This document shows positions 25,690 through 64,000 of a stretch of 64,000 nucleotides of DNA, piece by piece; the stretch's first letter is position 1, and every line of letters begins with the position of its first letter. The stretch comes from Chionoecetes opilio (taxonomy: Eukaryota > Arthropoda > Malacostraca > Decapoda > Majidae): NCBI GenBank assembly GCA_016584305.1, contig JACEEZ010019099.1, forward strand, positions 72,229 through 136,228. The letters are read 5' to 3'. Position numbers and translations under genes: made by a program. The notes beneath the pieces were generated by a model, which worked only from the letters and a program-made list of their open reading frames with translations, was not told the origin of the DNA and ran no database searches.

Positions 25690-26215
25690 ATTTTTAACTA
25701 AAAATGTTTTTCAACACTAGGTACCCAGAACTATCCCGCTCAGGAATACACTAAAAGAATTATAAAGGCTTTGACTAAACTTTTTCGCTCCCTTTGGGTA
25801 TCCCAAATAGGTAAATCCGACAGGGAAGTAACTTCATTTCGGGAAATTTTCCCAACAGTAATGTATGAGTTAGGCTTTAAAAATAATATTTGGCTATGCT
25901 TTATCACCCTCACCCCAAGGAGCTTTAAAAAAGGGTTTTCATCGACTTTTAAAGCATGCTCGGGAAATTTTGTATGGGGAAAAATAGGGTTTTGGGATAA
26001 GAATTCATTTTTTGTTTGCTAAAAGGGGACTGCCCAAAAAAACTCTAGGTTTCATCCTTTTCAATTGTTTTTTTGGCCATAAGGAGAACTCCTTTAACTG
26101 TGCTGAGGAAAGCTGATGAAGACAGATTAATTTTCCACTTTCTGGCTATGTAGTTTTCCCAAAAGATTCATCAAAACTTGCTAAATAGTAAGGCAACCAT
26201 AAGGGGGGCGGAAGG
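25690..26215 (+). pseudogene. Gypsy integrase fragment (copy A)
   Basis: It aligns base for base, with many indels, to the integrase of copies B (37830-38330) and D (53766-54256). No continuous frame survives. It is identified only through those copies. Confidence 0.65.
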
Positions 26216-26219
26216 AATG

Positions 26220-27800
26220 TTCCAAATTAGAAAAATCCTGTGCAGGAACATCTGGGGACACGGGAGTCGGGCCCCAAATTGGATTTCCAGGAGATGATGT
26301 GTCCTTGTAGGAGAAAACCTATCCCTCTATTTTTGCCCCTATCTATCATACTTTAAAAGGATTTTGCTGCTCAAAACACACGAATCCAAAATGTCAAACA
26401 CCCAGCCTGTCGACAAATGAGTTGTTTGTTTACACACTCCTGCCATCAGAGTTGGGGTGGATTCCCATTCCTACGTAACAAAATTCCTTTGCTGGGCACA
26501 ACGTATGGGACAAAAAATTTTCCCCTCTACCGGGCTATCTGGTTTGCAACCACAGTAAAACCCTTTTAAATTTTGCCCTTTGGGCTTTTGGGGTTGGGAT
26601 ATGGTACTGAGTAAAAACACCTTAAGCCATCCTAGCCCCCAGCACTATCTGGAAAAAAACCCCCATCACTCCTGAGAAACAAAGGGAAGGAAAAGTGGGA
26701 GCATAAATTGCGCATAACCAACTACGGGGAAAAAACAAAAAAAGGAAAAATTCCATCCCCAGATGGGGTAAAAAAAGCGGGTTGGAGGGAGTACCCAGCT
26801 CGGGCCCATTACACTTTTCAATCCTGAAACACTTTGTTTAGCTGTCTCTCCCGGGTGAATTTTATGCGGGTACTAAACAGATTAAACACAGTCTCATCAC
26901 TTGCCCGGTTCACCCCCCTTAACAACTTGCAGAGAGGAGATAAAATTTTCTCTGCCATATAGAAAGGTGTGACAAAGCTGAAAGTTCGGACCTCACTAAA
27001 AAACGCCTCATCCTGTCGGTTACGTGCAACCTTCATCAGGACTTAAGGACACTTGGGCCTGCCTATGAGGGTTTGTCAGGATTTTCCAAACCTGCTGAGT
27101 GTCGTTTTCTCACGGCCCTTTCTTCTATCGCACATTTCACTAGGGGAAAAGAACTTTTCCTTTGGGCCTTCACTCCTTTTCCCCCTAGAACAATTGCAAG
27201 CACGGGCCCCAGGGACCCTGCCCCCCGGGGGCAAAACCATCATAGAGCCAGCAAGCAACTCCCACAGATTTTTTGGAGATCCCCCAAAAAAGGGGCCATT
27301 TCCTTTATTATTGCACTCAACTCGTTTCAGTGAGGACATTACGCCCAGTCAATCTAGGCATGTTGAAGCTGGGAATGCTGTGAAAAACCGTGCTTGCTGG
27401 CCTGGTTCACTGGCATTTGCAAAAATGCCAGGTTGGAGGCAGAGTTGAAGAGATAGTTCTGTTGCGTGTCCCTTTTTGGAACCCGTCATTGATGCCCTTT
27501 CCCTGGGTCAATGTTTGGGAACATCATCCACAGGTTCTTGAGAGGGGGGATCCTATGGGGGGTTTCATCATATCCAGGAGCTTGGAGCCCCTGGTATAAC
27601 TGGGGACCATCAAACCACACTCTTCCCAAAAAGGGGGGGGGATCACTACCTGTTTTTCCAGCAATGATGCAGTTCTACGCCATGCTGAGATAGCTTCCCC
27701 TTTCACACCCACTGGATGTCATTCTAAGTCTTGTTGCCTTATCCAGCCCAGAGGGAAACACCCCTAAAGTGCAGTGACTGGATTTTGGGGCCCCTCACCC
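26220..27800 (+). pseudogene. Endogenous viral L-polymerase fragment (copy A)
   Basis: This is the same viral segment as copies B, C and D, broken by numerous small insertions, deletions and homopolymer expansions. The HR-containing part lies around 27515-27540. It shares the TAG nonsense codon (27454-27456) with B and D. Only short frames are left. Function and domain content are described under copy D. Confidence 0.75.
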
Positions 27801-27829
27801 ATCCATGGAAAACCCAGGGAAACCCTCAG

Positions 27830-28230
27830 CGCAAGCCTCCAAGTCGAGCAGATAAGTACTCTCTCTCTCTCTCTTTCCTTTGTGTTTTGGTCTTAATTTA
27901 AGTGTTCTTGTTTTGTTTCAAGTAATGTTTAAGTTTGCTTCTTTGCCAAACCCTCCCAAAAACTTTGCAAAGGTCTGTGTATTTTTTATTGTGTTATATT
28001 TCGCTATTTGTATTTCTATTATTACTGGTGTCGGGTATAGGTTTGGGGATTCTATAAGTGTTGCCATGATATTTAAAGTTTTTAAAATTTTTCAATATTC
28101 TCTTTTTCTATAATATTTTTCCTTTTAAAGAATCGGTAGTTTTAACGAAGGTCCATTTTTTAATGGGCCCTTTTTTTGTTTATGTAACAACACCCAGGGG
28201 TTTTAACATAAATTGGGGGGGTATCCGGGT
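27830..28230 (+). repeat. LTR end and primer binding site (copy A)
   Basis: It matches the LTR regions of B and D, with indels. The PBS-like motif at 28214-28229 reads TGGGGGGGTATCCGGG, and a gag-start-like ATGCCGATTTTGTCAGC follows at 28271. Upstream is the CTCTCTCT tract that ends the L fragment in every copy. Confidence 0.6.
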
Positions 28231-29398
28231 TTAAAAAAAAAAAAATTCTAAAATTTTTTGCCTTTTAAACATGCCGATTTTGTCAGCTACTTTTGTGGGA
28301 AAAACCGGTATTTCCCCGCTTTTTCGCTGCCAGCGAGGGCTTGACGTCCGTGCAAAAGGGACCATAGTTTTGCGTTTTCTTTTGTTAGTAATAGCGCGTT
28401 TTTGTGACGTTCACCCCCCTATTCAGCCATCTATACCCTTCCAGGGTGGTTTGATGCTCGCAAAATCATCGAATGGCCCCCCCAGTCCCATTTTTAGGGC
28501 CCGGGGGTGGGGGATCGAGTGGGCGGTACTGACCCGAAAGGAGGCGGGGCGTCCTTTTACACCTTTTTGTCGTCGTCCGCCTTTTAGCGGTGCTGAAAAT
28601 TACAAAAACCACGCCTTGATACTTAAGTTTTTTGGCGGGCATCATGCTGTTTTGTCTTATCAGCAGCACAGAAGCCTGGGCGTCTTCCCCCTACTGTATG
28701 CGCATGCGCCCGTTCCCCCACCTTTGTCCCCGGTCCTGCTCTCTGTTTAGCCCGGGCCGGGGCCAAAATGCCTCGCAAAAAAAAGTGGCCGCCCAGGAGT
28801 ACCGTCCAGACCGGGCCAGAGCATACGCGAAACGCGCTATAAACAAAGGCGGGGTGCCCTCATAAACAACGCTGGTCACACGACACCGGTCCCCCTCCAC
28901 CTACGTGTGTAGTTTCTGTCATTACGCCACTCGTATAAAGCTCAAAATCAATTAATACTTGTGCTTGAGTTTTGAAAGTATATTTCTTTCTTCACCATTT
29001 TTTTTTTATAAAAATGATTCAGAAAATTCTTTTTTATAAATTTTTCAAGCTGAACTTCAAATGTACCTTAACAAGGAAAAATTTTACCGTGTGCAAAAAT
29101 TGTACCCGAAAGGCCTTTTTTTAAAATGTAGGGGCCCTAGCCCCAAAGTACAATTTGGTACAATGTACCGCAGGTGGCAACCGTAAGCGATTTTTTGAAT
29201 ATTTTTTCGTAAAAAAAAACCGTTTGCCGGGAAAGTATTAAAAGGCTGCAGCAAATGTGGGGGAAACAATGTTCCATAATACCAAGAACCGATTTGTCGA
29301 AAAACGTTTGGAGGGGAAAACATCCGGTTTTAACAGGTTTTCCCCGTGTATAACAGATTTTAAATTTCCCTTGATAAATGACCTATAAGTTTGTTTTT
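28231..29398 (+). repeat. Shared block S between LTR and tandem repeat R (copy A)
   Basis: It corresponds to 40481-41015 plus 45745-46450 in copy B and to 56377-57620 in copy D. No gene is recognised. In the cleaner copies it contains a TATA-like CGTATATAAGG and the first partial monomer of repeat R near its end. Confidence 0.6.
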
Positions 29399-37440: not shown

Positions 37441-37720
37441 CTACCACATTCGGTAGGAACCATCAGGCTTTTCTACCAAGATGCAAGGCGACGACCAATC
37501 GCTGGTACTGTGTTCCACTAAGCTGTTCTCTAGGAGATAGTCAACTTCTTCCTTCAAAATCTTGCGTTTGACTGGACTCACTTTATAGGGTGCTTGCTTA
37601 ATGGGTGTCGTCCCTGGCAGTAAGGTGACATTCTGTTTCAGTAAGTTAGAGGCGCCTGGTACGTCACGAAACAGCAGCGTAAACTCCTTCAGCAATTCAG
37701 CTATGTCTTGGGTCTGCTCC
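37441..37720 (-). pseudogene. Gypsy reverse transcriptase N-terminal fragment (copy B)
   Basis: The frame 37695-37441 contains the classic approach to the RT domain of Gypsy polyproteins: TTPIKQAPYKVSPVKRKIL, then EEVDYLLENSLVEHSTSDWS and CILVEKPDGSYR. It stops there, at the edge of the duplicated segment. It lies head-to-head with the plus-strand integrase, an arrangement shared with copy A. Confidence 0.85.
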
Positions 37721-37826
37721 TTTGTACCCTATACCCGTGGTTGACCAGCCTTTTAGCAAAATAATTGTAGATTGTGTTGGCCCTCTTCCATAAACTAGCA
37801 CAGGTAACCAGTATTTATTAACTATA

Positions 37827-38330
37827 ATGTGTTCAACTACTAGGTACCCAGAAGCTATCCCGCTCAGGAATATCACTGCAAAGAATGTAGTAAAGGCTTT
37901 GACTAAACATTTCGCTACCTATGGTATCCCAAATAGTGTACAATCCGACAGGGGAAGTAACTTCACTTCAGGAATCTTCCAACAAGTAATGAATGAGTTA
38001 GGCATTAAACAATACTTGGCTACTGCTTATCACCCTTAGTCCCAAGGAGCTTTAGAAAGGTTTCATCAGACTTTTAAAGCAATGCTCAGGAAGTATTGTA
38101 TGGAGAATAATAGGGATTGGGATGAAGAAGTTCATCTTATGTTGTTTGCTATAAGGGACTGCCCAAATGAAACTCTAGGTTTGTCCTTTTCAATTGATTT
38201 TTGGCCATGAAGTGAGAACTCCTTTAACTGTGCTGAAGGAAAGCTGGCTGAATGACATGATTAATATTCCACTTTCTGACTATGTAAGTCAGTTCCAAAG
38301 ATGTCATCTAACTTGCTCAATAGTAAGGCA
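37827..38330 (+). pseudogene. Gypsy integrase, C-terminal half of core (copy B)
   Basis: The frame begins with TTRYPEAIPLRNITAKNVVK and carries the second catalytic aspartate (VQSDRGSNFTSGIF). After a stop at 38037-38039 come the catalytic glutamate context GALERFHQTFKAML and the segment before the chromo/GPY part (FDHEVRTPLTVLKESWLN-like, shifted). The zinc-binding N-terminus and the first aspartate are missing. The viral L fragment follows immediately. Confidence 0.85.
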
Positions 38331-38334
38331 ACCA

Positions 38335-40080
38335 TAGCTGGGCGGAAGGAATAGTTCCAATTAGAGAAATCCATGTGCAGGAACATCTGATATGGACACA
38401 GGAGTCGGGTCCCAAATTGCGACTTCCATGCAGAGTGGTGTGTCTCTTGCAGGAACAACCATATCCCCTCTAGTTGGTCCTATCTATGCATACATTGAAG
38501 GACTTGCTGCTCTAATACACGGAATCCAGAATGTCAGAAAACCCAGCCTGTCGACAAATGAGTTGTTGTGTTACACACTCCTGCCATCAGAGTTGGGTGG
38601 ATTCCCATTCCTAACTGTAACACAATTCCTGTATGATGGGCACAAAGATATGGTGACATAAATTTTTGCCCTCTACCAGGCTATCTGGGTTGCAGAGCCA
38701 CAGTATAGACCTTTAATTGCTCAATTAGTGGCTTTTAGGTTGGATATGGACACTAAGTCAAACACTCTACGAGCCATCCTAGACCCCAGCACTATCTGTG
38801 TAAAAACTCCCATCACTCCTGAGCAACTAATGAAGGCAAGTGTGGAGCATGAATTGCGCACTAACCCAACAACTATCAGGAACAAACAAATAAAGGAAAA
38901 AATGTCCATAGCTCCAGATGTGGTAAGAAAGCAGGTTGTGAGGGAGCTATCCAGACTCAGGCCATTACACTTATCCATCCTGCACACTTTGTTTGAGCTG
39001 TCACTCCCTGGTGAAGTTATGCAGGTACTCAACAGATTCGATTCAACACAGTCTCATCATTTGTCCGGTTCACCCACCTTAACAACTTGCAGAGAGGAGA
39101 TACAACTTTCTCTGACCATATAGAAAGGTGTGACAAGCTGAAAGTTCAGGACCTCACTAGAAGACGCACTCATCCTGTCGAGTTACGTGCAACCTTCATC
39201 AGGACTCTAATGGGGACCCATTGGCCTGCATATGAGGAGTTTTGTCAGGAGTTCCAATACCATGCTAAGTGTACGTTTTCTGCACGGCTGTTCTTCATAT
39301 CGCACATCTTCACTAGGGGAACAGAACTTGTCCTTGGTCCATTCACTCCTTCCCCCATAGAACAATTGCAAGCACGGGCCCCAGGCACCCTGCCCCCCAC
39401 TGGAGCAACACTCATCATAGAGCCAGCAAGCAACATCCCACTAGATTTTGTAGAGATCAACACAACAAGAGGACCATTTCCTTTATATATTGGCAGCTCA
39501 ACTCGTGATTCAGTGAGGACATTACGCCTAGTCAATCTAGAGCATGTTGAAGCTGGAAATGCTGTGAAAGACCTGATGCGTGTTCTGGCCTGGTTCACTG
39601 GCATTAGCAAAGATGCCAGGTTGGAGGCAGAGTTGAAGAGATAGATTCTGTTGCGTGTCCCTTCTTTGGAACCTGTCATTGATGCCCTTACCCTGGGGTC
39701 AATGTTTGGCAATATCATCCACAGGTTCTTGAGCAGGGGGGATCATATGGGGGCTTTCATCATATCCAGGAGCTTAGAGTCCACCTGGTATAGACTGGTG
39801 ACCAACAAAGCCACACTCTTCCAACAAGGGGGGGATGATCACTACCTGTTCTTCCAGCAAGTGATGCAGTTCATACATGCTATGCTGAGAGTAGCTGTCC
39901 CCTTTGCACACCCACTGGATGTCATCATCAATAGATCTTGTTGCACTTATCCAGTCCCAGAAGTGGAATTCACCCTTAAAGATGCAGTAGACTGGGATTT
40001 AGGGCCCATCACCACATCCATGGAATACCCAGGAATCCAGTCAGCGCAGAGCCTCCAAGTCGAGCAGATAAGTACTCTCT
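38335..40080 (+). pseudogene. Endogenous viral L-polymerase fragment (copy B)
   Basis: Open pieces are 38392-38661, 38728-39123, 39087-39644 and 39651-40157. Breaks are a TAA nonsense near 38657, a 5-bp insertion near 39040 and the TAG at 39642-39644 shared with A and D. Same domains as copy D: the end of the RdRp (LLPSELGGFPFLTVTQFLYD) and the PRNTase with YIGSST and the HR pair. It is a decayed viral fossil and makes no complete enzyme. Confidence 0.85.
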
Positions 40081-40480
40081 CTCTCTCTATCTTCCTTTGG
40101 TGTTTGGTCTTAATGTTAAGTGTTCTTGTTTTGTTTCAAGTAATGGATAACCAGTAATGTTTAAGTAATGTTTAAGTTTGCTTCTTTGCCAACCACTCCC
40201 AAACACCAAAGGTCTTGTGTATTATTTATTGTGTTTATATGTTCGCTTATTTGTATTTCTATTATATATGCTTGGTGTCGGGTATAGGTTAAGGTAGTTC
40301 TATAAGATGTATGCCATGATATTTAAAGTTATTAAATTTGTCAATATTTTCTTGTGCTATAAGTATTTCCTTTCAAAGAACTCGGTAGTTATTAACGAAG
40401 AGTCACATTTTCAATGAGCCTTGTTTTGTTTATGTAACAACTACCCTAGGGTTGTAACATAAATTGGGGACGTGTCCGGG
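40081..40480 (+). repeat. LTR end, PBS and gag start (copy B)
   Basis: The LTR ends GGTTGTAACA and is followed four bases later by the PBS-like TGGGGACGTGTCCGGG (40465-40480). A short A-tract and an ATG at 40521 open a short gag-like start (MPEFCLATFVEKP). The exact LTR start is not determined because the L fragment precedes it in every copy. Confidence 0.65.
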
Positions 40481-41015
40481 TTTAAAAAAAAAAAAATTCT
40501 AACATTTCTTGCCTGTAATCATGCCTGAGTTTTGTCTAGCTACTTTTGTGGAAAAGCCGTGTCATTTCCCGCGCTTTTCGCCTGCACAGCGAGGGCTGTG
40601 ACGTCACGTGCAAGGCACCTATAGTTCGCGTTTTCTTTTGTTAGTAATAGCGCGTTTTCGTGACGTTCACCGCCCTGGTTCAGTCCAGTCTATACCGTTC
40701 CAGGCTGGTTTGATGCTCGCTAAAATACATCGAGACTGGCCCCGTCCCATTCGTCGTTCCTATTGGCTGGGGGATCGAGTGGGCGGTACTGAACTGAACT
40801 GGAGGCGGCAGGCGTCCATCTTGTCAACATCCTTTTTGTCGTCGTCCGCCTTTTAACCTGTGCTGAAGACTTTACAACTACCACGCCTGTGATACTTTAG
40901 TCTTATGGTCGGCCATCATGGTGTTTCATGTCTTATCAGCAGCACGAGAAGCTCCTGGTCGTCTTCCCCGCTGACTGTAGTGCGCATGCGCCAGTTCTCC
41001 CCACACTAGTCCAAT
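40481..41015 (+). repeat. Shared block S, left part (copy B)
   Basis: Near-identical to 56377-56910 of copy D, it begins with the gag stub and then non-coding GC-rich sequence (ATAGCGCGTTTTCGTGACGT). The Academ-like element at 41016 splits it; the rest continues at 45745. Confidence 0.8.
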
Positions 41016-45744: not shown

Positions 45745-47693
45745 GTCCTGCTCTCTGTCCTAGCCCGGTCCGGTCCAAACTGCCTCGCAAAAACTGTGGC
45801 CGCCCAGGACTAGTCCAGTCCAGACCGGGCCAGAGCGTACGCGAAAACGCGCTATAAACAAAGGCGGACTGCACCTCATAAACAGACAGCTGGTCACACG
45901 ACACCGGTCCCACTCCACCTACGTAGTGTAGTACTCTGTCATTACGCCACTCGTATATAAGGCTCAAAATCAATTAATACTTGTGCTGAGTTTCAGAAAG
46001 TATATTTCTTTCTTTTGCCATTTGTTTTTAGTAAAACTGATTTCAGAACATTCTATTTTCTGCTATATTATTCAAGCTGAACTTCAAATCGTACCGTTAA
46101 CAAGGAAAATTGTACCGCTGAATGCAAATTGTACCAGAAATGGCCTTATTTTAAAATGTAGGACCACTAGCCTCTAAATGTACCATTTTTGGTACAATTG
46201 TACCGCAGGTGGCAACACTGTGAAGCGCATTTGTTGAATATTGTTCGGTAAAAATAACCGTTAGCCGTGGAATGTATCAGTAAGAGGCTGCAGCAAATGT
46301 GGGGAAGCAATGTTTCCATAATATCTCAAGAACCGTATTTTGTACGAGAAAACGTTATGGAGGGAAAACATCCAGATTTCAACAGGCTTCCCTGTGGTAT
46401 AAGCAGATTTAAATTCCCTTGATAAATGACCGTATTAAGTTTGTTTTTAAGGCATATTACCGGAAAAAAATATTCCAGAAATCAAGGGAAAATTGCATAC
46501 ATGCCTAGAACTCTTGCGAAAAAGAAATATACATTTTTCAAAGTGGAATACCATTCCTGCAGAAACGCTCTCCATCAAGACATAAAACAATGTTAGACGC
46601 ATAAAAGATAGATGTATGGTGCATCAATAAGCTGCTGGTAATTGAACGGCACAAGGGTGCGCAAAATATAAAAACTATCTAAAAATCTGTATAATACATT
46701 ATAAGTAAAAAAGAAATGGATAGATGCTTAGGGTAGATTTCGTTGAATTAACAAAAAGTATTCATGCCATTTTTGGTCTAGGATCAATAGTTTCATGGTA
46801 AAAAATAGGGAAACGCTATAAGTGTAGTGTTCTGACCATTTTAAGCTGCCAAAAATTTGGTAGTTTTATTTTCATACAGACGTAAAAATGATATCAATAC
46901 CAATTGTACATTTTGTGAAGAACAATAATAAATTGTTCTATATATTTTTTTCACAACCCTGCCAGTCAAAAAACCAGTTGTGAATTTTTTTTTTTATAGT
47001 AAAGAACGCATTTCCCGTATATATACCATACGGGAAGTCACAGAAGCAAAGTTGTAGAGCTCCAAAAATCCTGACCTATACTTGTTCCAAATCCGCTCTC
47101 AGTCCAGTATCTAGACCGCCAAATGTCAAAAACAGTTTTGTGCACGGCAACTGTGTGCAACTGCAAAGTGCACACCGTAACTCATAACTTTACACACTTT
47201 ATAACATAAAATGTATTACATACACACACGGGATATGTAGTAACAGTACCCGATGGACGAATTGGTTACGTGGCAAACAAATATAACTCGTCACAGGCAG
47301 TCTATGTCTCTGACTTCTTACTCATGTCCCTTGTCTTCTACTGGAATAGTGACACTATTTCTTACGGCATCAGTCTTCCGAACCCATCCAGTTGGAAAGA
47401 CCATGTCCCCGAGAACGACTGTCCCTTGCATGTACTAAAAAGACCAAAGTTGAACCAGACTGTGAACATGGTGAAGGTAAATCATTGTGCAAATAATAAA
47501 ATATAAATAAGGTTTTATCCTTTTGTCATGATGCTTAATCATCATGCTGATCTATAATTTTGATTCAGGGGTCTGTATTTCTTTAGTAAGTTTTGATGGA
47601 GACTTGCAAGCGGTTTTTTTCGGCAGTGGTCTCTAGTTCAAGCCTCGCCAGGAGCTACTTTTTTGTCCGTCGTCGAGTAGCCGAAGACACCCA
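45745..47693 (+). repeat. Block S right part and repeat R monomer (copy B)
   Basis: It continues copy B after the Academ-like insertion: block S (to about 46450) and the first part of an R monomer. It holds the only uninterrupted version of a 78-codon frame (47270-47506), which includes VPDGRIGYVANKYNSSQAVY and NPSSWKDHVPENDCPLHVLK and ends at a GTAAAT donor-like site. I do not recognise it. In the other monomers it is frameshifted. The monomer is interrupted at 47693 by the next insertion and resumes at 49620. Confidence 0.75.
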
Positions 47694-49619: not shown

Positions 49620-50840
49620 AAGGTCCCACATGCCTCCCCCATCAACTCACCTCCACGCAAATGCGGAGAGGCACCAGGGGAACTTAAAACCTCAATTTAA
49701 ATTACATGGTCACTCAAAATCCGCCTGCGACACCACGGGGGAGGGCCAGCCATCTATCCTTATAGAAAAAAACATATAAGGCCAAACCCCTGGGCCTCAA
49801 GGGAAAATAAAGTTTAAAAGGGGCTACAATTAAACTGACAAAAATAAAACTAAGAAAATAAATATAGGGTAAGGGCAAAACGTTTCGTCTCTCAAGTCTC
49901 CTCTAACGCTTTTAAAAGAGAAGAGAGAGCTCACACGCGTAGGTACATCTAAACTCTGAGATGGGGCACTAAAACTGAACGCCTTTTTTTTTTTCGTAAA
50001 AAAAAAAATACTTTTTGCCGTGGGAAATTATCGGGGGACGAGGGTGCGGAAAATGGGGGGAAAACAATGTTTCCATTATATCTAAAACCGATTAGCTCGA
50101 GAAAAATTATGGGGGGAAAAAATCTGTTTCAAAAGGCTTCCCTGTTCCCCGTGGGATAAGCAGATTTAAAATTCCCTTGATAATGACCAATTAAAATTTT
50201 TTTTAAGGGATATTACCCCAAAAAAAAAAATCCGAAATCCCGGGAAAATTGCATAAAACCTAGAACTTTTTGCAAAAAGAAATTACATTTTTTAAGTTGG
50301 GGAAAACGATTCCTTCAGAAACGCTCTCCCTCAAGACAAAAACAATGTTAGACGCAAAAAAATAGATGTAAGTGCTTTTAAAAAGCTCTGGTAAAATTTA
50401 ACGGGACAAGGGGGCGCAAAATATAAAATACTAAAATCTGTATATACTTATAATAAAAAAGAAATGGGTAAAGCTTGGGTAGATTTCGTTGAATTAACAA
50501 AAAATATTCATGCCATTTTTTTGGGCTAGGATCATATTTTTCATGGGGAAAAAAAGGGAAACCTATAAGTGTGTGTTTTCACCTTTTTTTGCCAAAAATT
50601 GGGATTTTTTTTTCATACAGCGTAAAAAGAATCAAAACCAATTTACATCTTTCGAAGAAAAATAAATTTTCTATAAATTTTTTTTCACAACCCCGCCAGT
50701 CAAAAAAAATGTTTTTGAAGTTTTTTTTTTTTATTGTAAAGAACGCATTTTCCCCTATATATACGGAAAAGTCACAGAAGCAAAGTTGTAGAGCTCCAAA
50801 AATCCTAACCTATACTTGTTCCAAATCCGCTCTCAAGTGT
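49620..50840 (+). repeat. Repeat R continuation (copy B), error-rich
   Basis: It resumes the interrupted R monomer and runs into the start of the next, joining copy C at about 50845 through a GTGTGTCT tract. Compared with 59700-61050 it has many single-base losses and homopolymer expansions (about 49250-50830), the same style as 23.3-29.4 kb. Confidence 0.7.
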
Positions 50841-50854: not shown

Positions 50855-53178
50855 GTGTGTCGACAAATGAGTTGTTGTGTTACACGCTCCTGCCATCAGA
50901 GTTGGGTGGATTCCCATTCCTACCTGTAACACAATTCCAGTATGCTGGGCACAAAGATATGGTGACAGAAATTTTTGCCCTCTACCAGACTATCTGGGTT
51001 GCAGAGCCACAGTATAAACCTTTAATTGCTCAGCTAGTGGCTTTTAGGTTGGATATGGAAACTGAGTCAAACACCCCTACGAGCCATCCTAGACCCCAGC
51101 ACTATCTGTGTAAAAACTCCCATCACTCCTGAGCAACTAATGAAGGCAAGTGTGGAGCATGAATTGCGCACTAACCCAACAACTATCAGGAACAAACAAA
51201 TAAAGGAAAAAATGTCCATAGCAACCAGATGTGGTAAGAAAGCAGGTTGTGAGGGAGCTATCCAGACTCAGGCCATTACACTTATCCATCCTGCACACTT
51301 TGTTTGAGCTGTCACTCCCTGGTGAAGTTTTGCAGGTACTCAACATATTCAACAGTCTCATCACTTGTCCGGTTCACCAACCTTAACACTTGCAGAGAGG
51401 AGATACAACTTTCTCTGACCATGTAGAAAGGTGTGACAAGCTGAAAGTTCAGGACCTCACTAGAAGACGCACTCATCCTGTCGAGTTACGTGCAACCTTC
51501 ATCAGGACTCTAATGGGGACCCAATTAGAGAGAACTGAAACTCGAGAAATGCCAGTGGTCGCTGGCAGTTTTAACTCAAAGGTTGGTCTACTGTGTTTTG
51601 GCTCCGCGACTAATATTTTTCATAATATTTATTTCGCGATAAACATTGATGCACCGCATCTGAATACCAAAAAATATAGTTCTTCTGTTGTTCTACTAAT
51701 TATATGGATGACATTCATTACGATGGAACGTTCTATAATAGCAATTTAATGCAAATTACTCGCCTCGAGTAGCAAAGCTTAATATATTTTTTACATGTAT
51801 ATTGTGGCATGTAAAATTTGGGTGATGTTCACACTGTTTTCTAAGACCGTACTGCTGCGTCTGGCAAACGCTTGTTAAAATACAATAAGCAATGCCTTGG
51901 AAAAACGAAGAATAAAGAATGCCGAAATCGGCTTGTTGCTGCGACAATGTAGGTTATAATTGTGGAGGCGACACGCCGCGGCGGGGAGTGGTGGCGGGGA
52001 GATTGTGGCGGGGAGATTGAATCAAAACATTGCCACTTCACGCGTCGACTCATTGCACTTCCAGGCTTTCTATCTGATTGATACACAATAAAAACAGGAA
52101 AATATGACTGCCTAGGTATAGATAACTTCTAAACATACGTTATTGACTATATAATATCATAGAGTAACATTTACCTCGCCTCCTCAACTATAACCTACTT
52201 GGTTATTTGGTTAAATGCATGTTTTACAGACTCAGGCTTCTATACAATATACATATAGAAGAAAATCGTTCTTAAAATTATACTTTTGTGTTTTAAGTGC
52301 AGTGGAATAAGCCCATATTTTTCTTTCAAGTTGACCAACTTTTCACCAAATTGTGAGTTAAAACTGCCAGCGACCACTGGCATTTCGGAGTTGCAGTTCT
52401 CTCTAATTGCCTGCATATGAGGAGTTTTGTCAGGAGTTCCAATACCATGACGAGTGTACGTTTTCTGCACGGGTTCTTCATATCGCACATCTTCACTAGG
52501 GAAACAGAACTTGTCCTTGGTCCATTCACTCCTTCCCCCATAGAACAATTGCAAGCACGGGCCACAGGCACCCTGCCCCCCACTGGAGCAACACTCATCA
52601 TAGAGCCAGCAAGCAACATCCCACTAGATTTTGTAGAGATCAACACAACAAGAGGACCATTTCCTTTATATATTGGCAGCTCAACTCGTGACTCAGTGAG
52701 GACATTACGCTTAGTCAATCTAGAGCATGTTGAAGCTGGGAATGCTGTGAAAGACCTGATGCGTGTGCTGGCCTGGTTCACTGGCATTAGCAAAGATGCC
52801 AGGTTGGCGGCAGAGTTGAAGAGACAGATTCTGTTGCGTGTCCCTTCTTTGGAACCTGTCATTGATGCCCTTACCCTGGGGTCAATGTTTGGCAACATCA
52901 TCCACAGGTTCTTGAGCAGAGGGGATCCTATGGGGGCTTTCATCATATCCAGGAGCTTGGAGTCCACCTGGTATAGACTGGTGACCAACAAAGCCACAAT
53001 CTTCCAACAAGGTGGGGATGACCACTACCTGTTCTTCCAAAAAGTGATGCAGTTCATACATGCCATGCTGAGAGTAGCTGTCCCCTTTGCACACCCACTG
53101 GATGTCATCATCAATAGATCTTGTTGCACTTATCCAGTCCCAGAAGTGGAATATACCCTTAAAGATGCAGTAGACTGA
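50855..53178 (+). pseudogene. Endogenous viral L-polymerase fragment (copy C)
   Basis: It starts inside the L fragment at VSTNELLCYTLLPSELGGFP-equivalent sequence, so integrase and the first roughly 60 codons of the L segment are absent. It is interrupted by an 878-bp MITE (51527-52404). The part after the MITE (52417-53178) is the longest uninterrupted L frame in the window: YIGSST near 52670, the HR pair near 52902 and a FFQKVMQF segment near 53030. Unlike A, B and D it keeps CAG at 52825-52827 where they have TAG, so it branched off earlier. Domains as in copy D. Confidence 0.85.
51527..52404. mobile_element. 878-bp MITE with AATT target, copy 1
   Basis: AATT lies at 51523-51526 and 52405-52408. 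The ends are AGAGAGAACTGAAACTCGAG and, inverted, AGAGAGAACTGCAACTCCGA; both continue with GAAATGCCAGTGGTCGCTGG. Copies B and D show the site without it. It is the same length and nearly the same sequence as 62427-63304. No gene. A 4-bp target does not fix the superfamily. Confidence 0.9.
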
Positions 53179-53269
53179 GATTTAGGTAGGACCCATCACC
53201 ACATCCATGGAATACCCAGGAATCCAGTCAGCGCAGAGCCTCCAAGTCGAGCAGATAAGTACTCTCTCT

Positions 53270-53665
53270 CTCTCTCTTCCTTTGGTGTTTGGTCTTAATG
53301 TTAAGTGTTCTTGTTTTGTTTCAAGTAATGGATAACCAGTAATGTTTAAGTAATGTTTAAGTTTGCTTCTTTGCCAACCACTCCCAAACACCAAAGGTCT
53401 TGTGTATTATTTATTGTGTTTATATGTTCGCTTATTTGTATTTCTATTATATATGCTTGGTGTCGGGTATAGGTTAAGGTAGTTCTATAAGATGTATGCC
53501 ATGATATTTAAAGTTATTAAATTTGTCAATATTCTCTTGTGCTATAAGTATTTCCTTTCAAAGAACTCGGTAGTTATTAACGAAGAGTCACATTTTCAAT
53601 GAGCCTTGTTTTGTTTATGTAACACCTACCCTAGGGTTGTAACATAATTTGGGGGCCTGTCCGGG
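53270..53665 (+). repeat. LTR end and primer binding site between copies C and D
   Basis: From the CTCTCTCT tract through GGTTGTAACA (ends about 53644) and then TGGGGGCCTGTCCGGG (53650-53665). The PBS resembles the retroviral/Gypsy type complementary to a tRNA 3' end. It is very similar to 56000-56376 and 40081-40480. The LTR 5' border cannot be set from this window. Confidence 0.7.
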
Positions 53666-53705
53666 TTAAAAAAAAAAAAATTATAACATTTCTTGCCTGT
53701 AATCA

Positions 53706-53765
53706 TGCCTGAGTTTTGTCTAGCTACTTTTGTGGAAAAGCCGTGTCATTTCTAAAAAAAGCCGT
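53706..53765 (+). pseudogene. gag start stub (copy D)
   Basis: The ATG at 53706 opens MPEFCLATFVEKPCH, like the beginning of Gypsy gag proteins. It stops almost at once: a roughly 15-bp segment AAAAGCCGTGTCA is duplicated at the deletion junction, and integrase sequence starts at 53766. Confidence 0.5.
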
Positions 53766-54256
53766 GTCACCGTATCCCGCTCAGGAATATCACTGCAAAG
53801 AATGTAGTAAAGGCTTTGACTAAACATTTCGCTACCTATGGTATCCCAAATAGTGTACAATCCGACAGGGGAAGTAACTTCACTTCAGGAATCTTCCAAC
53901 AAGTAATGAATGAGTTAGGCATTAAACAATACTTGGCTACTGCTTATCACCCTCAGTCCCAAGGAGCTTTAGAAAGGATTCATCAGACTTTTAAAGCAAT
54001 GCTCAGGAAGTATTGTATGGAGAATAATAGGGATTGGGATGAAGAAGTTCATCTTATGTTGTTTGCTATAAGGGAATGCCCAAATGAAACTCTAGGTTTC
54101 AGTCCTTTTCAATTGATTTTTGGCCATGCAGTGAGAACTCCTTTAACTGTGCTGAAGGAAAGCTGGCTGAATGACATGATTAATATTCCACTTTCTGGCT
54201 ATGTAAGTCAGTTCCAAAGATGTCATCTAACTTGCTCAATAGTAAGGCAACCATAG
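53766..54256 (+). pseudogene. Gypsy integrase, C-terminal half of core (copy D)
   Basis: It is the best-preserved integrase copy. The frame includes VQSDRGSNFTSGIFQQVMNE with the second catalytic aspartate, YHPQSQGALERIHQTFKAML with the glutamate, and FGHAVRTPLTVLKESWLNDM, which leads out of the core. The HHCC zinc finger and the first aspartate are missing because of the deletion, so it cannot act alone. Homology to integrase ends near 54240, just before the L fragment. Confidence 0.85.
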
Positions 54257-55990
54257 TTGGGCGGAAGGAATAGTTCCAATTAGAGAAATCCATGTGCAGG
54301 AACATCTGATATGGACACAGGAGTCGGGTCCCAAATTGCGACTTCCATGCAGAGTGGTGTGTCTCTTGTAGGAGCAACCATATCCCCTCTGGTTGGTCCT
54401 ATCTATGCATACATTGAAGGACTTGCTGCTCTAACACACGGAATCCAGAATGTCAGAACACCCAGTGTGTCGACAAATGAGTTGTTATGTTACACACTCC
54501 TGCCCTCAGAGTTGGGTGGATTCCCATTCTTAACTGTAACACAATTCCTGTATGCTGGGCACAAAGATATGGTGACAGAAATTTTTGCCCTCTACCAGGC
54601 TATCTGGGTTGCCGAGCCACAGTATAGACCTTTAATTGCTCAACTAGTGGCTTTTAGGTTGGATATGGACACTTGAGTCAAACACCCTACGAGCCATCCT
54701 AGACCCCAGCACTATCTGTGTAAAAACTCCCATCACTCCTGAGCAACTAATGAAGGCAAGTGTGGAGCATGAATTGCGCACTAACCCAACAACTATCAGG
54801 AACAAACAAATAAAGGAAAAAATGTCCATAGCTCCAATGTGGTAAGAAAGCAGGTTGTGAGGGAGCTATCCAGACTCAGGCCATAACACTTATCCATCCT
54901 GCACACTTTGTTTGAGCTGTCACTCCCTGGTGAAGTTATGCAGGTACTCAACAGATTCAACACAGTCTCATCACTTGTCCGGTTCACCCACCTTAACAAC
55001 TTGCAGAGAGGAGATACAACTTTCTCTGACCATATAGAAAGGTGTGACAAGCTGAAAGTTCAGGACCTCACTAGAAGACGCACTCATCCTGTCGAGTTAC
55101 GTGCAACCTTCATCAGGACTCTAATGGGGACCCATTGGCCTGCATATGAGGAGTTTTGTCAGGAGTTCCAATACCATGCTGAGTGTACGTTTTCTGCACG
55201 GCTGTTCTTCATATCGCACATCTTCACTAGGGGAACAGAACTTGTCCTTGGTCCATTCACTCCTTCCCCCATAGAACAATTGCAAGTACGGGCCCCAGGC
55301 ACCCTGCCCCCCACTGGAGCAACACTCATCATAGAGCCAGCAAGCAACATTCCACTAGATTTTGTAGAGATCAACACAACAAGAGGACCATTTCCTTTAT
55401 ATATTGGCAGCTCAACTCGTGATTCAGTGAGGACATTACGCCTAGTCAATCTAGAGCATGTTGAAGCTGGGAATGCTGTGAAAGACCTGATGCGTGTGCT
55501 GGCCTGGTTCACTGGCATTAGCAAAGATGCCAGGTTGGAGGCAGAGTTGAAGAGATAGATTCTGTTGCGTGTCCCTTCTTTGGAACCTGTCATTGATGCC
55601 CTTACCCTGGGGTCAATGTTTGGCAACATCATCCACAGGTTCTTGAGCAGGGGGGATCCTATGGGGGCTTTCATCATATCCAGGAGCTTAGAGTCCACCT
55701 GGTATAGACTGGTGACCATCAAAGCCACACTCTTCCAACAAGGGGGGGATGATCACTACCTGTTCTTCCAGCAAGTGATGCAGTTCATACATGCCATGCT
55801 GAGAGTAGCTGTCCCCTTTGCACACCCACTGGATGTCATCATCAATAGATCTTGTTGCACTTATCCAGTCCCAGAAGTGACTGGATTCACCCTTAAAGAT
55901 GCAGTAGACTGGGATTTAGGGCCCATCACCACATCCATGGAATACCCAGGAATCCAGTCAGCGCAGAGCCTCCAAGTCGAGCAGATAAGT
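54257..55990 (+). pseudogene. Endogenous viral L-polymerase fragment (copy D)
   Basis: It derives from the large polymerase of a non-segmented negative-strand RNA virus (mononegavirus or chuvirus type). The segment begins after the catalytic GDN region with IWTQESG and QIATSMQSGVS, runs through LLPSELGGFPFLTVTQFLYA (RdRp C-terminal part) and LSLPGEVMQVLNRF, then covers the PRNTase capping domain. Motifs there are VLGPFTPSPIEQL, YIGSST (residues 165-170 of frame 54908-55558), AWFTG, the catalytic HR pair (about 55634-55639) and YLFFQQVMQF. Methyltransferase and the earlier RdRp are absent. A 1-bp change near 54670, a deletion near 54836 and TAG at 55556-55558 break it. The family is not fixed. 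Confidence 0.88.
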
Positions 55991-56376
55991 ACTCTCTCTC
56001 TCTTCCTTTGGTGTTTGGTCTTAATGTTAAGTGTTCTTGTTTTGTTTCAAGTAATGTTTAAGTAATGTTTAAGTTTGCTTCTTTGCCAACCACTCCCAAA
56101 CACTTTGCAAAGGTCTTGTGTATTATTTATTGTGTTTATATGTTCGCTTATTTGTATTTCTATTATATATGCTTGGTGTCGGGTATAGGTTAAGGTAGTT
56201 CTATAAGATGTATGCCATATTTAAAGTTATTAAATTTGTCAATATTCTCTTGTGCTATAAGTATTTCCTTTCAAAGAACTCGGTAGTTATTAACGAAGTC
56301 ACATTTTCAATGAGCCTTGTTTTGTTTATGTAACACCTACCCTAGGGTTGTAACATAAATTGGGGGCCTATCCGGG
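55991..56376 (+). repeat. 3' LTR and downstream PBS (copy D)
   Basis: Sequence from the CTCTCTCT tract to GGTTGTAACA (56355), then PBS-like TGGGGGCCTATCCGGG (56361-56376). A PBS after the second LTR means another, mostly deleted, element copy once followed; only its gag start (56418, MPEFCLATFVEKP) remains. Confidence 0.65.
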
Positions 56377-57620
56377 TTTAAAAAAAAAAATATTCTAACA
56401 TTTCTTGCCTGTAATCATGCCGGAGTTTTGTCTAGCTACTTTTGTGGAAAAGCCGTGTCATTTCCCGCGCTTTTCGCCTGCACAGCGAGGGCTGTGACGT
56501 CACATGCAAGACACCTATAGTTCGCGTTTTCTTTTGTTAGTAATAGCGCGTTTTCGTGACGTTCACCACCCTGATTCAGTCCAGTCTATACCGTTCCAGG
56601 CTGGTTTGATGCTCGCTAAAATACATCGAGACTGGCCCCGTCCCATTCGTCGTTCCTATTGGCTGGGGGATCGAGTGGGCGGTACTGAACTGAACTGGAG
56701 GCGGCAGGCGTCCATCTTGTCAACATCCTTTTTGTCGTCGTCCGCCTTTTAGCGTGTGCTGAAGACTTTACAACTACCACGCCTGTGATACTTAAGTTTT
56801 ATGGTCGGTCATCATGCTGTTTCATGTCTTATCAGCAGCACGAGAAGCTCCTGGTCGTCTTCCCCGCTGACTGTAGTGCGCATGCGCCAGTTCTCCCCAC
56901 ACTAGTCCAACCTGGTCCTGCTCTCTGTTCTAGCCCGGTCCGGTCCAAACTGCCTCGCAAAAACAGTGGCCGCCCAGGAGTAGTCCAGTCCAGACCGGGC
57001 CAGAGCATACGCGAAAACGCGCTATAAACAAAGGCGGACTGCACCTCATAAACAGACAGCTGGTCACACGACACCGGTCCCACTCCACCTACGTAGTGTA
57101 GTACTCCGTCATTACGCCACTCGTATATAAGGCTCAAAATCAATTAATACTTGTGCATGAGTTTCAGAAAGTATATTTCTTTCTTTTACCATTTGTTTTT
57201 AGTAAAACTGATTTTAGAGAAAATTCTATTTTCTACTATATTATTCAAGCTGAACTTCAAATCGTACCGTTAACAAGGAAAATTGTACCGCTGAATGCAA
57301 ATTGTACCAGAAATGGCCTTATTTTAAAATGTAGGACCACTAGCCTCTAAATGTACAATTTTGGTACAATTGTACCGCAGGTGGCAACACTGTGAAGCGC
57401 ATTTGTTGAATATTGTTCGGTAAAAATAACCGTTAGCCGTGGAATGTATCAGTAAGAGGCTGCAGCAAATGTGGGGAAGCAATGTTTCCATAATATCTCA
57501 AGAACCGTATTTTGTACGAGAAAACGTTATGGAGGGAAAACATCCAGATTTCAACAGGCTTCCCTGTGGTATAAGCAGATTTAAATTCCCTTGATAAATG
57601 ACCGTATTAAGTTTGTTTTT
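56377..57620 (+). repeat. Shared block S (copy D), uninterrupted
   Basis: This is the cleanest copy of the block linking the LTR element to repeat R. It has the empty Academ site at 56905-56915, CGCGCTATAAACAAAGGCGG, and a TATA-like CGTATATAAGG at 57121-57131. From about 57430 there is a partial first R monomer (CGTTAGCCGTGGAATGTATC). No gene recognised. Confidence 0.7.
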
Positions 57621-58607
57621 AAGGCATTTTACCGGAAAAAAATATTCCAGAAATCAAGGGAAAATTGCATACATGCCTAGAACTGTTGCGAAAAAGAAAT
57701 ATACATTTTTCAAAGTAGAATACCATTCATGCAGAAACGCTCTCCATCAAGACATAAAACAATGTTAGACGCATAAAAGATAGATGTATGGTGCATCAAT
57801 AAGCTGCTGGTAATTGAACGGCACATGGGTGCGCAAAATATAAAAACTATCTCTAAAATCTTTATTATACATATATAAGTAAAAAAGAAATGGATAGATG
57901 CTTAGGGTAGATTTCGTTGAACTTAACAAAAAGTATTCATGCCATTTTTGGTCTAGGATCAATAGTTTCATGGTAAAAAATAGGGAAACGCTATAAATGT
58001 AGTGTTCTGACCATTTCAAGGTGCCAAAAGTTTGGTAGTTTGATTTTCATACAGACATACAGATTTTTATAGTAAAGAACGCATTTCCCGTATATATACG
58101 GGAAAAGTCACAGAAGCAAAGTTGTAGAGCTCCAAAAATCCTGATTTAAACTTGTTCCAAATCCGCTCTCAGTCCAGTATTTAGACCGCCAAATGTCAAA
58201 AAGTTTTGTGCACGGCAACTGTGTGCAACTGCAACGTGCACACCGTAACCCACAATTTTACACACTTTATAACATAAAATGTATTACATACACACACTGG
58301 GGATATGTAGTAGCAGTACCCGATGGACGAATTGGTTACGTGGCAAACAAATATAACTCGTCACAGGCAGTCTATGTCTCTGACTTCTTACTCATGTCCC
58401 TGTCTTCTACTGGAATAGTGACACTATTTCTTACGGCATCAGTCTTCCGAACCCATCCAGTTGGAAAGACCATGTCCCCGAGAACGACTGTCCCTTGCAT
58501 GTACTAAAAAGACCAAAGTTGAACCAGACTGTGAACATGGTGAAGGTAAATCATTATGAAAATAATAAAAGATAAATAAGGTTTTATCCTTTTGTCATGC
58601 TTAATCA

Positions 58608-59564
58608 TCAATCATTGGGGGCATACGCCGGGGGGCGCGTCGCCTCGCCCACCCTACGACGCCACTCCCGGGGGTCACCACGCGCGAGTTCCCATGCAGC
58701 CTCCTTTCCCATACCAAGCAGCTCTCGACAAGAAACATCAACTTGCCCCAGCCACGAGCCTTGTGGGCGCCCCCTTGACCTCCTCCACGCCGGATTGTCT
58801 CTTACAGATACAACCCGATGGGAAGGATCGGTTTCAGGGTAGCGTGCCACATGCCCATATAGCCGAAGTTGGCGCTGACGGACTATGCAGGTAATAGGCC
58901 TCGATTCAGTCTCACGGTGCAATCGCTGATTTGACACGTAATCATCCCAGCGATACCCCATGATTCTGCGAAGACACTTATTGCCAAAGGCATTGATTCG
59001 TCTCTTCAAGTCACTATTTAGTGTCCATGTCTCACAACCATAGAGTAAGACAGGAATCACAAGCGACTTGAAGATCCGGATCTTTGTCCTCCTGCACAGG
59101 TACCGACAACGCCAAATACTCCCGCTGAGCGAGTCCATAACACCGTGGGCTATGCCAATCCGCCGTAAGGCTTCTTGACGTGACCCGCCGTCATTATGGA
59201 CTGCGCTACCAAGGTATGTAAAACTTTCCAAGATCTCAATGTCCTCGCCACACGCATGAACAGACTGCACTGCTTCATCTAGTAAGTCTCCAAACACCTG
59301 GACCTTGGTCTTGAGCCAGGAGACCGCAAGTCCCAAAGGCTTTGCCTCCTCGTGCAGCGCCTCGAGAGCCATCACCAGGACCTCCAGCGACTCAGCAAAG
59401 ATTACTGCATCATCGGCAAAAACAAGATCAGTGATCTTGGTGTTGCCGACGGATGCTCCACAATCACTTTGATCTACAACCTTGTCCAATACCCAGTCCA
59501 TACAAGCGTTGAAAAGTGATGGGGCAAGGACGCACCCTTCCCTCACCCTTGTATTAATCATCAT
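58608..59564 (-). CDS. Reverse transcriptase C-terminal part (RTE-like), open
   Basis: An open frame of about 315 codons, 5'-truncated inside the RT palm. The first few residues come from target DNA; the element begins near VREGCVLAPSLFNACMDWVL. It retains LVFADDAVIFAESL, the thumb (SWLKTKVQVFGDLL), YLCRRTKIRIFKSLVIPVLL, LYGCETWTLNSDLKRRINAF and a C-terminal CIVRQRQLRLYGHVARYPET region. The stop TGA (58608-58610) falls in the tail/target junction, so there is essentially no 3' UTR. It lacks endonuclease and the first catalytic aspartate, so it is a dead end despite being open. Confidence 0.8.
   Translation of the reverse strand: MMINTRVREGCVLAPSLFNACMDWVLDKVVDQSDCGASVGNTKITDLVFADDAVIFAESLEVLVMALEALHEEAKPLGLAVSWLKTKVQVFGDLLDEAVQSVHACGEDIEILESFTYLGSAVHNDGGSRQEALRRIGIAHGVMDSLSGSIWRCRYLCRRTKIRIFKSLVIPVLLYGCETWTLNSDLKRRINAFGNKCLRRIMGYRWDDYVSNQRLHRETESRPITCIVRQRQLRLYGHVARYPETDPSHRVVSVRDNPAWRRSRGRPQGSWLGQVDVSCRELLGMGKEAAWELARGDPREWRRRVGEATRPPAYAPND
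58611..59553 (-). mobile_element. RTE-like retrotransposon, 5'-truncated, copy 2
   Basis: TTAATCATCA duplicates flank it (58601-58610 and 59554-59563). The 3' end (left, minus strand) reads AATGATTGATGATTAA, a TGA-type tail as in RTE elements. The same junction in copy A (30308) shows that the insertion predates the A/D duplication. Monomers A2, B and D2 have the empty site. Confidence 0.85.
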
Positions 59565-60310
59565 GCTGATCTATAATTTTGATTCAGGGGTCTGTATTTC
59601 TTTAGTAAGTTTTTATGGGGACTTGCAAGCGGTTTTTTTCGGCAGTGGTCTCTAGTTCAAGACTCGCCAGGAGCTACTTTTTTGTCCGTCGACGAGTAGC
59701 CGAAGACACCCACAATCCCACATGCCTCCACATCAACCTCACCTCCGACTGCAAGTACGGCAGAGGGCACCAGGGGGAAGCTTAAGCCTCAATTAATTAC
59801 ATGTGTCACTCAACAAATCCAGCCTGCGACACCACGGGCGAGGGCCAGCCATCTCATCCTTATAGAAATAACATATAAGGCCAACCACCTGAGGCCTCAA
59901 GGAAGATAAAAGTTTAAAGGCGCTACAAGTATAAAACATGACAAAAATAATACTAAGAAAATAAATATAGGGTAGAGTCAAAAGCGTTTCGTCTCATCAA
60001 GTCTCCTCTAACTGACTTTCAAGAGAGAGAGAGAGAGCTCGCACGCGTACGTCTAGTCTCTGAGATGGACACTGAAAGACTGAAGCGCCTTTATTCGATA
60101 AAAAAAAAATACGTTAGCCGTGGAATGTATCATTACGAGGCTGCGGAAAATGGGGGGAAGCAATGTTTCCATTATATCTCAAGAACCGTATTAGCTACGA
60201 GAAAACGTTATGGAGGGAAAAAATCTAGATTTCAACAGGCTTCCCTGTTCCCTGTGGTATAAGCAGATTTAAATTCCATTGATAAATGACCGAATTAAAT
60301 TTGTTTTTAA

Positions 60311-60588
60311 GGCAAATTACCCGAAGAAAAAAAATCCTGAAATCAAGGGAAAATTGCATAGTACATGCGTAAAACTCTTGCGGATAAGAAATGTAAATTT
60401 TTCAAAGTAGAATACCATTCATGCAGAAACGCTCTCCATCAAGACATAAAACAATGTTAGACGCATAACAGATAGATGTATGGTGCATCAATAAGCTGCT
60501 GGTAATTGTGATTCTGGTAATTGCGCAAAATAGTAGGGTACGCAAAGTAGGGTGCGCAAAATATAAAAACTATCTAAAAATCTGTATA

Positions 60589-60659
<71 letters not shown>

Positions 60660-62422
60660 TAAAAAAGAAATGGATAGATGCTTAGGGTAGATTTCGTTGA
60701 ACTTAACAAAAAGTATTCATGCCATTTTTGGTCTAGGATCAATAGTTTCATGGTAAAAAATAGGGAAACGCTATAAGTGTAGTGTTCTGACCATTTTAAG
60801 CTACCAAAAATTTGGTAGTTTTATTTTCATACAGACGTAAAAATGATATCAATACCAATTGTACATCTTGCGAAGAACAATAATAAATTGTTCTATATAT
60901 TTTTTTCACAACCCTGCCAGTCAAAATTTTTTTTTTTTTTTTTATAGTAAAGAACGCATTTCCCGTATATATACGGGAAAAGTCACAGAAGCAAAGTTGT
61001 AGAGCTCCAAAAATCCTGATTTAAACTTGTTCCAAATCCGCTCTCAGTCCAGTATTTAGACCGCCAAATGTCAAAAACAGTTTTGTGCACGGCAACTGTG
61101 TGCAACTGCAACGTGCACACCGTAACCCACAATTTTACACACTTTATAACATAAAATGTATTACATACACACACTGGGGATATGTAGTAGCAGTACCCGA
61201 TGGACGAATTGGTTACGTGGCAAACAAATATAACTCGTCACAGGCAGTCTATGTCTCTGACTTCTTACTCATGTCCCTGTCTTCTACTGGAATAGTGACA
61301 CTATTTCTTACGGCATCAGTCTTCCGAACCCATCCAGTTGGAAAGACCATGTCCCCGAGAACGACTGTCCCTTGCATGTACTAAAAAGACCAAAGTTGAA
61401 CCAGACTGTGAACATGAAGGTAAATCATTATGAAAATAATAAAAGATAAATAAGGTTTTATCCTTTTGTCATGCTTAATCATCATGCTGATCTATACATT
61501 TTGATTCAGGGGTCTGTATTTCTTTAGTAAGTTTTTATGGGGACTTGCAAGCGGTTTTTTTCGGCAGTGGTCTCTAGTTCAAGACTCGCCAGGAGCTACT
61601 TTTTTGTCCGTCGTCGAGTAGCCGAAGACACCCACAATCCCACATGCCTCCACATCAACCTCACCTCCGACTGCAAGTGCGGCAGAGGGCACCAGGGGGA
61701 AGAAGCTTAAGCCTCAATTAATTACATGTGTCACTCAACAAATCCAGCCTGCGACACCACGGGCGAGGGCCAGCCATCTCAGCCTTCTAGAAATAACATA
61801 TAAGGCCAACCACCTGAGGCCTCATGGAAGATAAAAGTTTAAAGGCGCTACAAGTATAAAACATGACAAAAATAATACTAAGAAAATAAATATAGGGTAG
61901 TCAAAAGCGTTTCGTCTCATCAAGTCTCCTCTAACTGACTTTCAAGAGAGAGAGAGCTCGCACGCGTACGTCTAGTCTCTGAGATGGACACTGAAAGACT
62001 GAAGCGCCTTTATTCGATAAAAAAAAAATACGTTAGCCGTGGAATGTATCATTACGAGGCTGCGGAAAATGGGGGGAAGCAATGTTTCCATTATATCTCA
62101 AGAACCGTATTAGCTACGAGAAAACGTTATGGAGGGAAAAAATCTAGATTTCAACAGGCTTCCCTGTTCCCTGTGGTATAAACAGATTTAAATTCCATTG
62201 ATAAATGACCGAATTAAATTTGTTTGTAAGGCATATTACCCGAAGAAAAAAAATCCAGAAATCAAGGGAAAATTGCATAGTACATGCGTAAAACTCTTGC
62301 GGATAAGAAATGTAAATTTTTCAAAGTAGAATACCATTCATGCAGAAACGCTCTCCATCAAGACATAAAACAATGTTAGACGGATAAAAGATAGATGTAT
62401 GGTGCATCAATAAGCTGCTGGT
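60311..62422 (+). repeat. Tandem repeat R, monomer D2 and start of D3
   Basis: It is a second full monomer (to about 62228) followed by the beginning of a third, cut by an AATT MITE and then ending at 63352. It has the longest (TA)n tract of all monomers (60592-60657). The RTE target at about 61470-61495 is empty. Small frames as in the other monomers. Confidence 0.8.
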
Positions 62423-62426
62423 AATT

Positions 62427-63304: not shown

Positions 63305-64000
63305 AATTGAACGGCACAAGGGTGCGCAAAATATGAAAACAACATGGGTTCACCCACAGTCTATAACGGTCATCCGACGCGCAGGTTGGGGGTGGGGCTT
63401 AATGACGTCACGCGATCCAGGTGACGATACAGTGATACAGTGTGTACTCGCGGTTGCCACTCGGTGAAATTATGAATGATTTAATCATTATCTTTACTAG
63501 TAATGGAACATTGCATTTCCTTATAACAACACAATTGGTATTAATGGACATGTTATTTACCAAATAAGCAGTACATGAAAACAGCATGGATGTAATAAAC
63601 AATACAGTAAAAGGCTAAGTGGCATTGTGTTGGGGCGGGGGAGGATGTAACACGTGACTCTGACACGTGACTCAGCTGGCGCAGCCTAGTCCCTCCTTCC
63701 TCCTCCGCCCCAACACGATGCCACGTAAGCCGGCCACACACACACCGGCGCGGCCTGTCCGGCCGCCAAAAAGTGGCGGGGCATCGTTCGCCGGACGAGA
63801 CCCACACACACACCGGCCGCCTCATGAAAATATACAGTACACGTCGGACCACCATGATGACAACATGAATCCGCTGTCCGAAAATGACTTGTTGGTGATG
63901 GCTGCATGTGCAGCCATATATAATACCTATATGTAATACGTCATACTATATATAATACGTCATATATAATACCTATATTATTATAAATACAATTATAACT
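63305..64000. other. End of repeat R and unique flank
   Basis: R ends at 63352 after GGGTTCACC. Then follows mostly non-coding sequence. A GC-rich inverted repeat (GTGTTGGGGCGGGGGAGGA near 63628 and its near-inverse near 63700-63716) encloses repeated ACGTGACTC words. A plus-strand frame 63667-63936 ends SENDLLVMAACAAIYNTYM; it could be a first exon of a transposase gene, but I cannot name it. The last 60 bp are ATAATAC/CATATA-type simple repeat. Confidence 0.4.

Follow-up and report, generated by a model that had tools for sequence, protein, structure and literature searches.

A negative-strand virus polymerase fragment joined to Ty3/Gypsy pieces in Chionoecetes opilio, probably multiplied by local segmental duplication

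Fragments of negative-strand virus genes have been described in crustacean DNA, and the consulted part of PMC4573495 counts seven duplications after insertion among these endogenous viral elements (EVEs) and reports no signature of transposition-mediated insertion. The mosquito NIRVS treated in PMC5497376 are enriched near Ty3/gypsy elements and many of them are duplicated; in the text consulted, template switching by a retrotransposon reverse transcriptase is called likely, and one viral insertion is found inside a full-length Pao-Bel element. A true capture is represented by Anakin, BEL/Pao elements with a captured chuvirus glycoprotein of which 13 are complete with both LTRs and all domains, and the same source, as far as its consulted sections go, counts 18 chuvirus RdRp insertions separately from Anakin (PMC7642597). 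In cereals, complex LTR insertions share an LTR; those in the consulted excerpts of PMC1950507 are element-element fusions and involve no viral gene. No LTR element with a captured L was found among the literature matches listed, which are mostly non-subscription papers, and both the segmental duplication of viral insertions and chimeric cDNA of Gypsy and virus are already in print.

The locus described here lies in a window of 64 kb from Chionoecetes opilio, by which we mean the whole stretch of DNA that was analysed. Measured against the portions of these four papers that were consulted, it resembles the crustacean Mononegavirales EVEs of PMC4573495 in that negative-strand gene fragments stand in arthropod DNA and that copies sharing a flank are read as duplication, but here L borders immediately on Gypsy pieces at either end. 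As in the mosquito NIRVS (PMC5497376), a viral fragment lies by Ty3/gypsy and is duplicated, whereas the Gypsy element is here broken and inverted. With Anakin (PMC7642597) the locus shares a negative-strand virus gene after the integrase of an LTR element, yet this gene is L and not a glycoprotein, and no complete element is present in the window. As in the cereal insertions of PMC1950507, an LTR closes one unit and the PBS and leader of the next follow, although those are element-element fusions and a viral gene is involved here. We think it probable that the locus is a non-retroviral EVE, in which L and a broken Ty3/Gypsy element, probably as a chimeric cDNA, entered by one insertion that was followed by local segmental duplication.

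Self-comparison of the window finds four copies of L, with matched stretches at 26408-27847 (unit B), 38549-40063 (unit A), 50855-53250 (copy 1) and 54290-55985 (unit C). An integrase stands upstream of L in A, B and C and is absent in copy 1, and in all four copies an LTR-like stretch and a leader follow behind L. Elsewhere in the window, the integrase-L-LTR-like unit of C is matched at 37856-40584 (A) and 25732-28323 (B). The features are as follows.

25732..28729, plus strand: unit B, a poorly assembled stretch with 225 gaps and 212 mismatches against C
37441..37728, minus strand: inverted Ty3-type reverse transcriptase start before the integrase of unit A (solved RT/RNase H E 1.9e-4; Ty3-G Gag-Pol E 5.9e-4)
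37856..41014, plus strand: unit A, with integrase, L, LTR-like stretch, PBS, leader and the beginning of the flank; 98.4% identity to C outside 10 gaps
50855..53250, plus strand: copy 1, L with no integrase, interrupted at 51523-52409 by a repeat of about 0.89 kb (self-comparison; Mononeg_mRNAcap E 8.2e-14)
53274..53752, plus strand: LTR-like stretch, PBS and leader of copy 1, to the left of unit C
53753..53772, no strand: filler of about 20 bp that repeats a neighbouring word and joins copy 1 to the integrase of unit C (join sequence)
53773..54255, plus strand: Ty3/Gypsy integrase of unit C, a fragment that lacks both ends (Pfam rve E 2.2e-9)
54256..54290, plus strand: integrase-L junction zone of unit C; integrase likeness stops before it and the L frame starts after it
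54290..55985, plus strand: L fragment of unit C, with frame breaks and stops (Mononeg_RNA_pol and Mononeg_mRNAcap matches)
56000..56360, plus strand: LTR-like stretch of unit C, one of four such stretches in the window, all of which follow an L copy
56361..56378, plus strand: PBS-like 18-mer of unit C, read in the sequence
56379..56464, plus strand: leader past the PBS of unit C, common to all four copies (BLAST self-comparison)
56465..57421, no strand: outer 3' flank common to A, B and C, matched in the window only at 28321-29206 (B) and at 40574-41014 plus 45741-46249 (A)

From about 25000 to 29200, unit B and its flank are full of short gaps, as in an unpolished long-read assembly; with 225 gaps against C over about 2.9 kb, compared with 10 for A, unit B was given little weight. 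The repeat that splits copy 1 has inverted ends and recurs at 62423-63309 with 99% likeness, and it is probably a MITE-like DNA transposon. The window also contains a transposase at 3185-4183 (Pfam DDE_Tnp_1_7, E 4.5e-53), which we take to be PiggyBac-type, and, on the minus strand at 58608-59570, part of a LINE-type reverse transcriptase (RVT_1, E 1e-12), to which the stretch at 9364-10025 is 88% alike.

The integrase of unit C lies in an open frame at 53756-54256, which gives a Pfam rve match above the Pfam cut-off and contains both motifs, QSDRGSN and GALERIHQTF. A protein search returned 12 relatives with a top identity of 71%, 11 of which carry a precomputed rve annotation, and a protein of the mantis shrimp Oratosquilla oratoria is among them at 60% identity. 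The rve core and the Gypsy relatives together identify the fragment as Ty3/Gypsy integrase. At least four of the relatives (P0003, P0004, P0005, P0010) extend beyond the end of the unit C integrase and are integrase-like there, and no L sequence follows the integrase in any of these. In the window no full gag-pol is present, and only the integrase stands in sense, as a fragment.

After a spacing of about 35-50 bp, on the same strand, follows a mononegavirus-type L stretch of about 1.7 kb that comprises the RdRp end and the mRNA-capping region. Its frame at 54284-54676 has a weak Mononeg_RNA_pol match (E 0.0012) and the frame at 54887-55558 a Mononeg_mRNAcap match (E 0.0027), both below the Pfam cut-off, whereas the frame at 55559-56065 matches Mononeg_mRNAcap above it (E 1.2e-6). 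The longer frame of copy 1 at 52357-53178, to which the Mononeg_mRNAcap value listed for copy 1 belongs, also matches solved L proteins at E 1.4e-7. The best of these matches are to chains of 1711-1756 aa, which by their length are probably those of Borna disease virus. Given these Pfam and solved-protein matches and the YIGSST and HR motifs, which were located in the L frames, the L likeness is not due to chance. The initial annotation had reported a Gypsy-type integrase with these two integrase motifs, followed within about 50 bp on the same strand by a 1.7-kb L segment with the RdRp end, YIGSST and HR, and all of this stands.

Other searches with L returned little: nothing below E 0.048 was found for the three single L frames of unit C in the solved-structure search, and the protein search gave a single relative, P0001, at 36% identity, while a second L protein search gave no relatives. 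None of these searches placed L in a viral family, the chuviruses included. In the viral contig scan, none of the three stretches matched by the L frame and none of the 11 matched by the integrase was confirmed, and the predicted structure of the copy 1 L frame (mean pLDDT 36.5) was too poor for use. L is decayed, with stops and frame breaks in every copy, and its surroundings are non-viral, consisting of Gypsy, repeat and flank sequence. It is an endogenous viral element derived from a mononegavirus-type L gene.

Behind L in unit C follow the LTR-like stretch with its PBS-like 18-mer, together about 360 bp, and the leader of about 85 bp. The 18-mer is presumably tRNA-Pro-like, and the label LTR is given for the PBS-like motif and the repeats, an LTR 5' boundary not being recognised. 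An LTR end plus PBS had initially been noted on both sides of unit C. Both stretches are present, at about 53274-53667 and 56000-56378, they are 94% alike and each ends in the PBS-like 18-mer, but the left one is the 3' end of copy 1 and thus lies outside unit C. The window holds four LTR matches, one behind each L copy, and among them none is an own 5' LTR for A, B or C, the nearest match before A being that of B, about 9 kb away; within the window, not one of the units is enclosed by an LTR pair of its own. Around the LTR start, no run of at least nine purines that could represent a polypurine tract was seen in the copies scanned (A, C and copy 1, not B). Between the end of the copy 1 leader at 53752 and the start of the integrase at 53773 lies only the short filler, and its sequence gives this join the look of a scar left where two blocks were end-joined.

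On the 5' side, the inverted reverse transcriptase start precedes the integrase in two of the three integrase-L units. No Pfam family was found for it in unit A, and its counterpart in unit B is located at 25339-25730 with 88% likeness. The composite consists of an inverted reverse transcriptase start, integrase, L, an LTR-like end, PBS and leader, without the parts that are needed for self-movement. The order Gypsy-L-Gypsy, with L in place of the element part that would normally connect integrase and LTR, accords with a chimeric cDNA produced by a Gypsy reverse transcriptase. Most likely this enzyme would have used its own RNA and the viral L RNA in turn as templates, a step suggested by the arrangement, or the two cDNAs would have been end-joined. 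The rearranged Gypsy-virus chimera would then have integrated once. The copies in the window carried outer flanking DNA along as they multiplied, by local segmental duplication, and they decayed thereafter. What counts against this reading is that L occupies the env position of LTR elements, in sense and between integrase and LTR.

It is possible, if rather doubtful, that no Gypsy reverse transcriptase was involved and that LINE machinery or break repair, for instance, brought L separately into Gypsy debris that was already broken, or next to it, with segmental duplication following as before. That the Gypsy part is already scrambled would suit such a course, the filler between copy 1 and C points to end joining in the region, and the crustacean EVEs in the consulted part of PMC4573495 show no transposition signature. 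Two informal observations speak against it, namely that the element piece between integrase and LTR is missing exactly at L and that neither poly-A nor a target duplication was noticed at the L ends.

The duplication itself is most evident from the outer 3' flank. About 950 bp of it are found in all three integrase-L units and nowhere else in the window, although A, B and C do not constitute three independent tests of flank sharing. In A, this flank is interrupted by an insertion of 4726 bp (41015-45740) and resumes at 45741. Between C and A, the two flank parts diverge by 2.24% (446 sites) and 1.97% (508 sites), L by 1.65% (28/1692) and the integrase by 1.04% (5/481), and the two copies hence continue into the same flank at like divergence, as is expected of a segmental duplication. 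Since a retrotransposed copy would land in unrelated DNA, the 3' flank shared by all three units indicates duplication and not retrotransposition. The 5' side offers the weaker comparison: upstream of the integrase, A and B agree over about 400 bp, which are entirely or largely Gypsy reverse transcriptase, and differ beyond that, and C has copy 1 at this place. The initial annotation had favoured an entry of L into the post-integrase region of a Gypsy element and copying with that element, and had named a common outer flank at all integrase-L junctions as the observation that would decide against it. With no own LTR pair or full gag-pol present, and with this common flank in all three junction units of the window, neither this proposal nor the independent insertions with unrelated flanks that it implied can be upheld here, and it is the alternative given alongside, L beside a broken element followed by segmental duplication, that matches what the window shows.

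An in-frame L stop is common to A, B and C and missing in copy 1. The shared stop and the shared flank suggest that copy 1 was the first to diverge, ahead of A, B and C. Behind the L units, a repeat family with many same-strand copies, 67-99% alike, forms a local array (29202-34111, 46250-47693, 49989-50835 and 57422-62426), and L units and repeat array may have been amplified together. The insertion in the flank of A contains open frames on the minus strand, of which one gave, beyond E 0.01, only a chance-looking family and two others gave no match.

The copy number could in part be an assembly artefact, with haplotypes or raw reads placed side by side, which we consider improbable; the 225 gaps in about 2.9 kb between B and C are of the kind that this would leave, but A differs from C by 51 substitutions, 10 gaps and the 4726-bp insertion, and copy 1 has its own insertion and its own upstream context. 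A, C and copy 1, at any rate, appear to be genuine copies.

The L copies were also compared by codon position, with short stretches at frame breaks left out and with small numbers throughout. At sites present in A, C and copy 1, the 51 copy-private changes fall on codon positions 1/2/3 as 16/13/22 (p 0.29), and the pairwise counts are 7/9/10 for C and A, 11/11/17 for C and copy 1, and 15/9/18 for A and copy 1. By codon position, these three copies thus give no clear sign of selection on L, the numbers being small, and the changes look neutral. Copy 1 and C differ less in the LTR-like stretch than in L (1/357 vs 39/1509, p 0.0036), a result that plain co-duplication would not lead one to expect. 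The same contrast is weak between C and A (2/357 vs 28/1692, p 0.15), and between A and copy 1 the LTR-like stretch is likewise little diverged (3/378). PBS and leader are more diverged, with 3-5 changes in 103-104 sites (4/103 between copy 1 and C). The low LTR-like divergence could reflect gene conversion, or it could be a chance result, given that several comparisons were made.

This divergence pattern, together with the order and strand of integrase, L, LTR and PBS, is what could be cited for an active Gypsy element that took up L after its integrase and was amplified by retrotransposition, the window holding its wrecked and later duplicated remains, but we regard this as very unlikely, as all three units in the window have a common outer flank, an LTR pair is lacking, no polypurine tract was seen in the copies scanned, the reverse transcriptase is inverted and L is without sign of selection. 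For the window, gene capture by a mobile element is rejected on account of the shared flank, the absence of an LTR pair and, in the three copies scanned, of a polypurine tract, and the inverted reverse transcriptase. That a full Gypsy lineage elsewhere in the genome has a segment derived from L behind its integrase and before its 3' LTR, and has copied it by retrotransposition, is hardly to be expected; if true, it would be the first case of an LTR element that captured part of a negative-strand polymerase.

Returning to the chimeric insertion and its duplication, which we prefer, the locus provides a clear case of a negative-strand virus polymerase fragment joined to Ty3/Gypsy pieces. It shows that the order integrase-viral gene-LTR can arise by duplicated wreckage and is in itself no proof of gene capture. 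It also agrees with the proposal that the reverse transcriptase of LTR elements helps to make endogenous viral elements, and it is possible that the L composite is a candidate source of antiviral piRNA.
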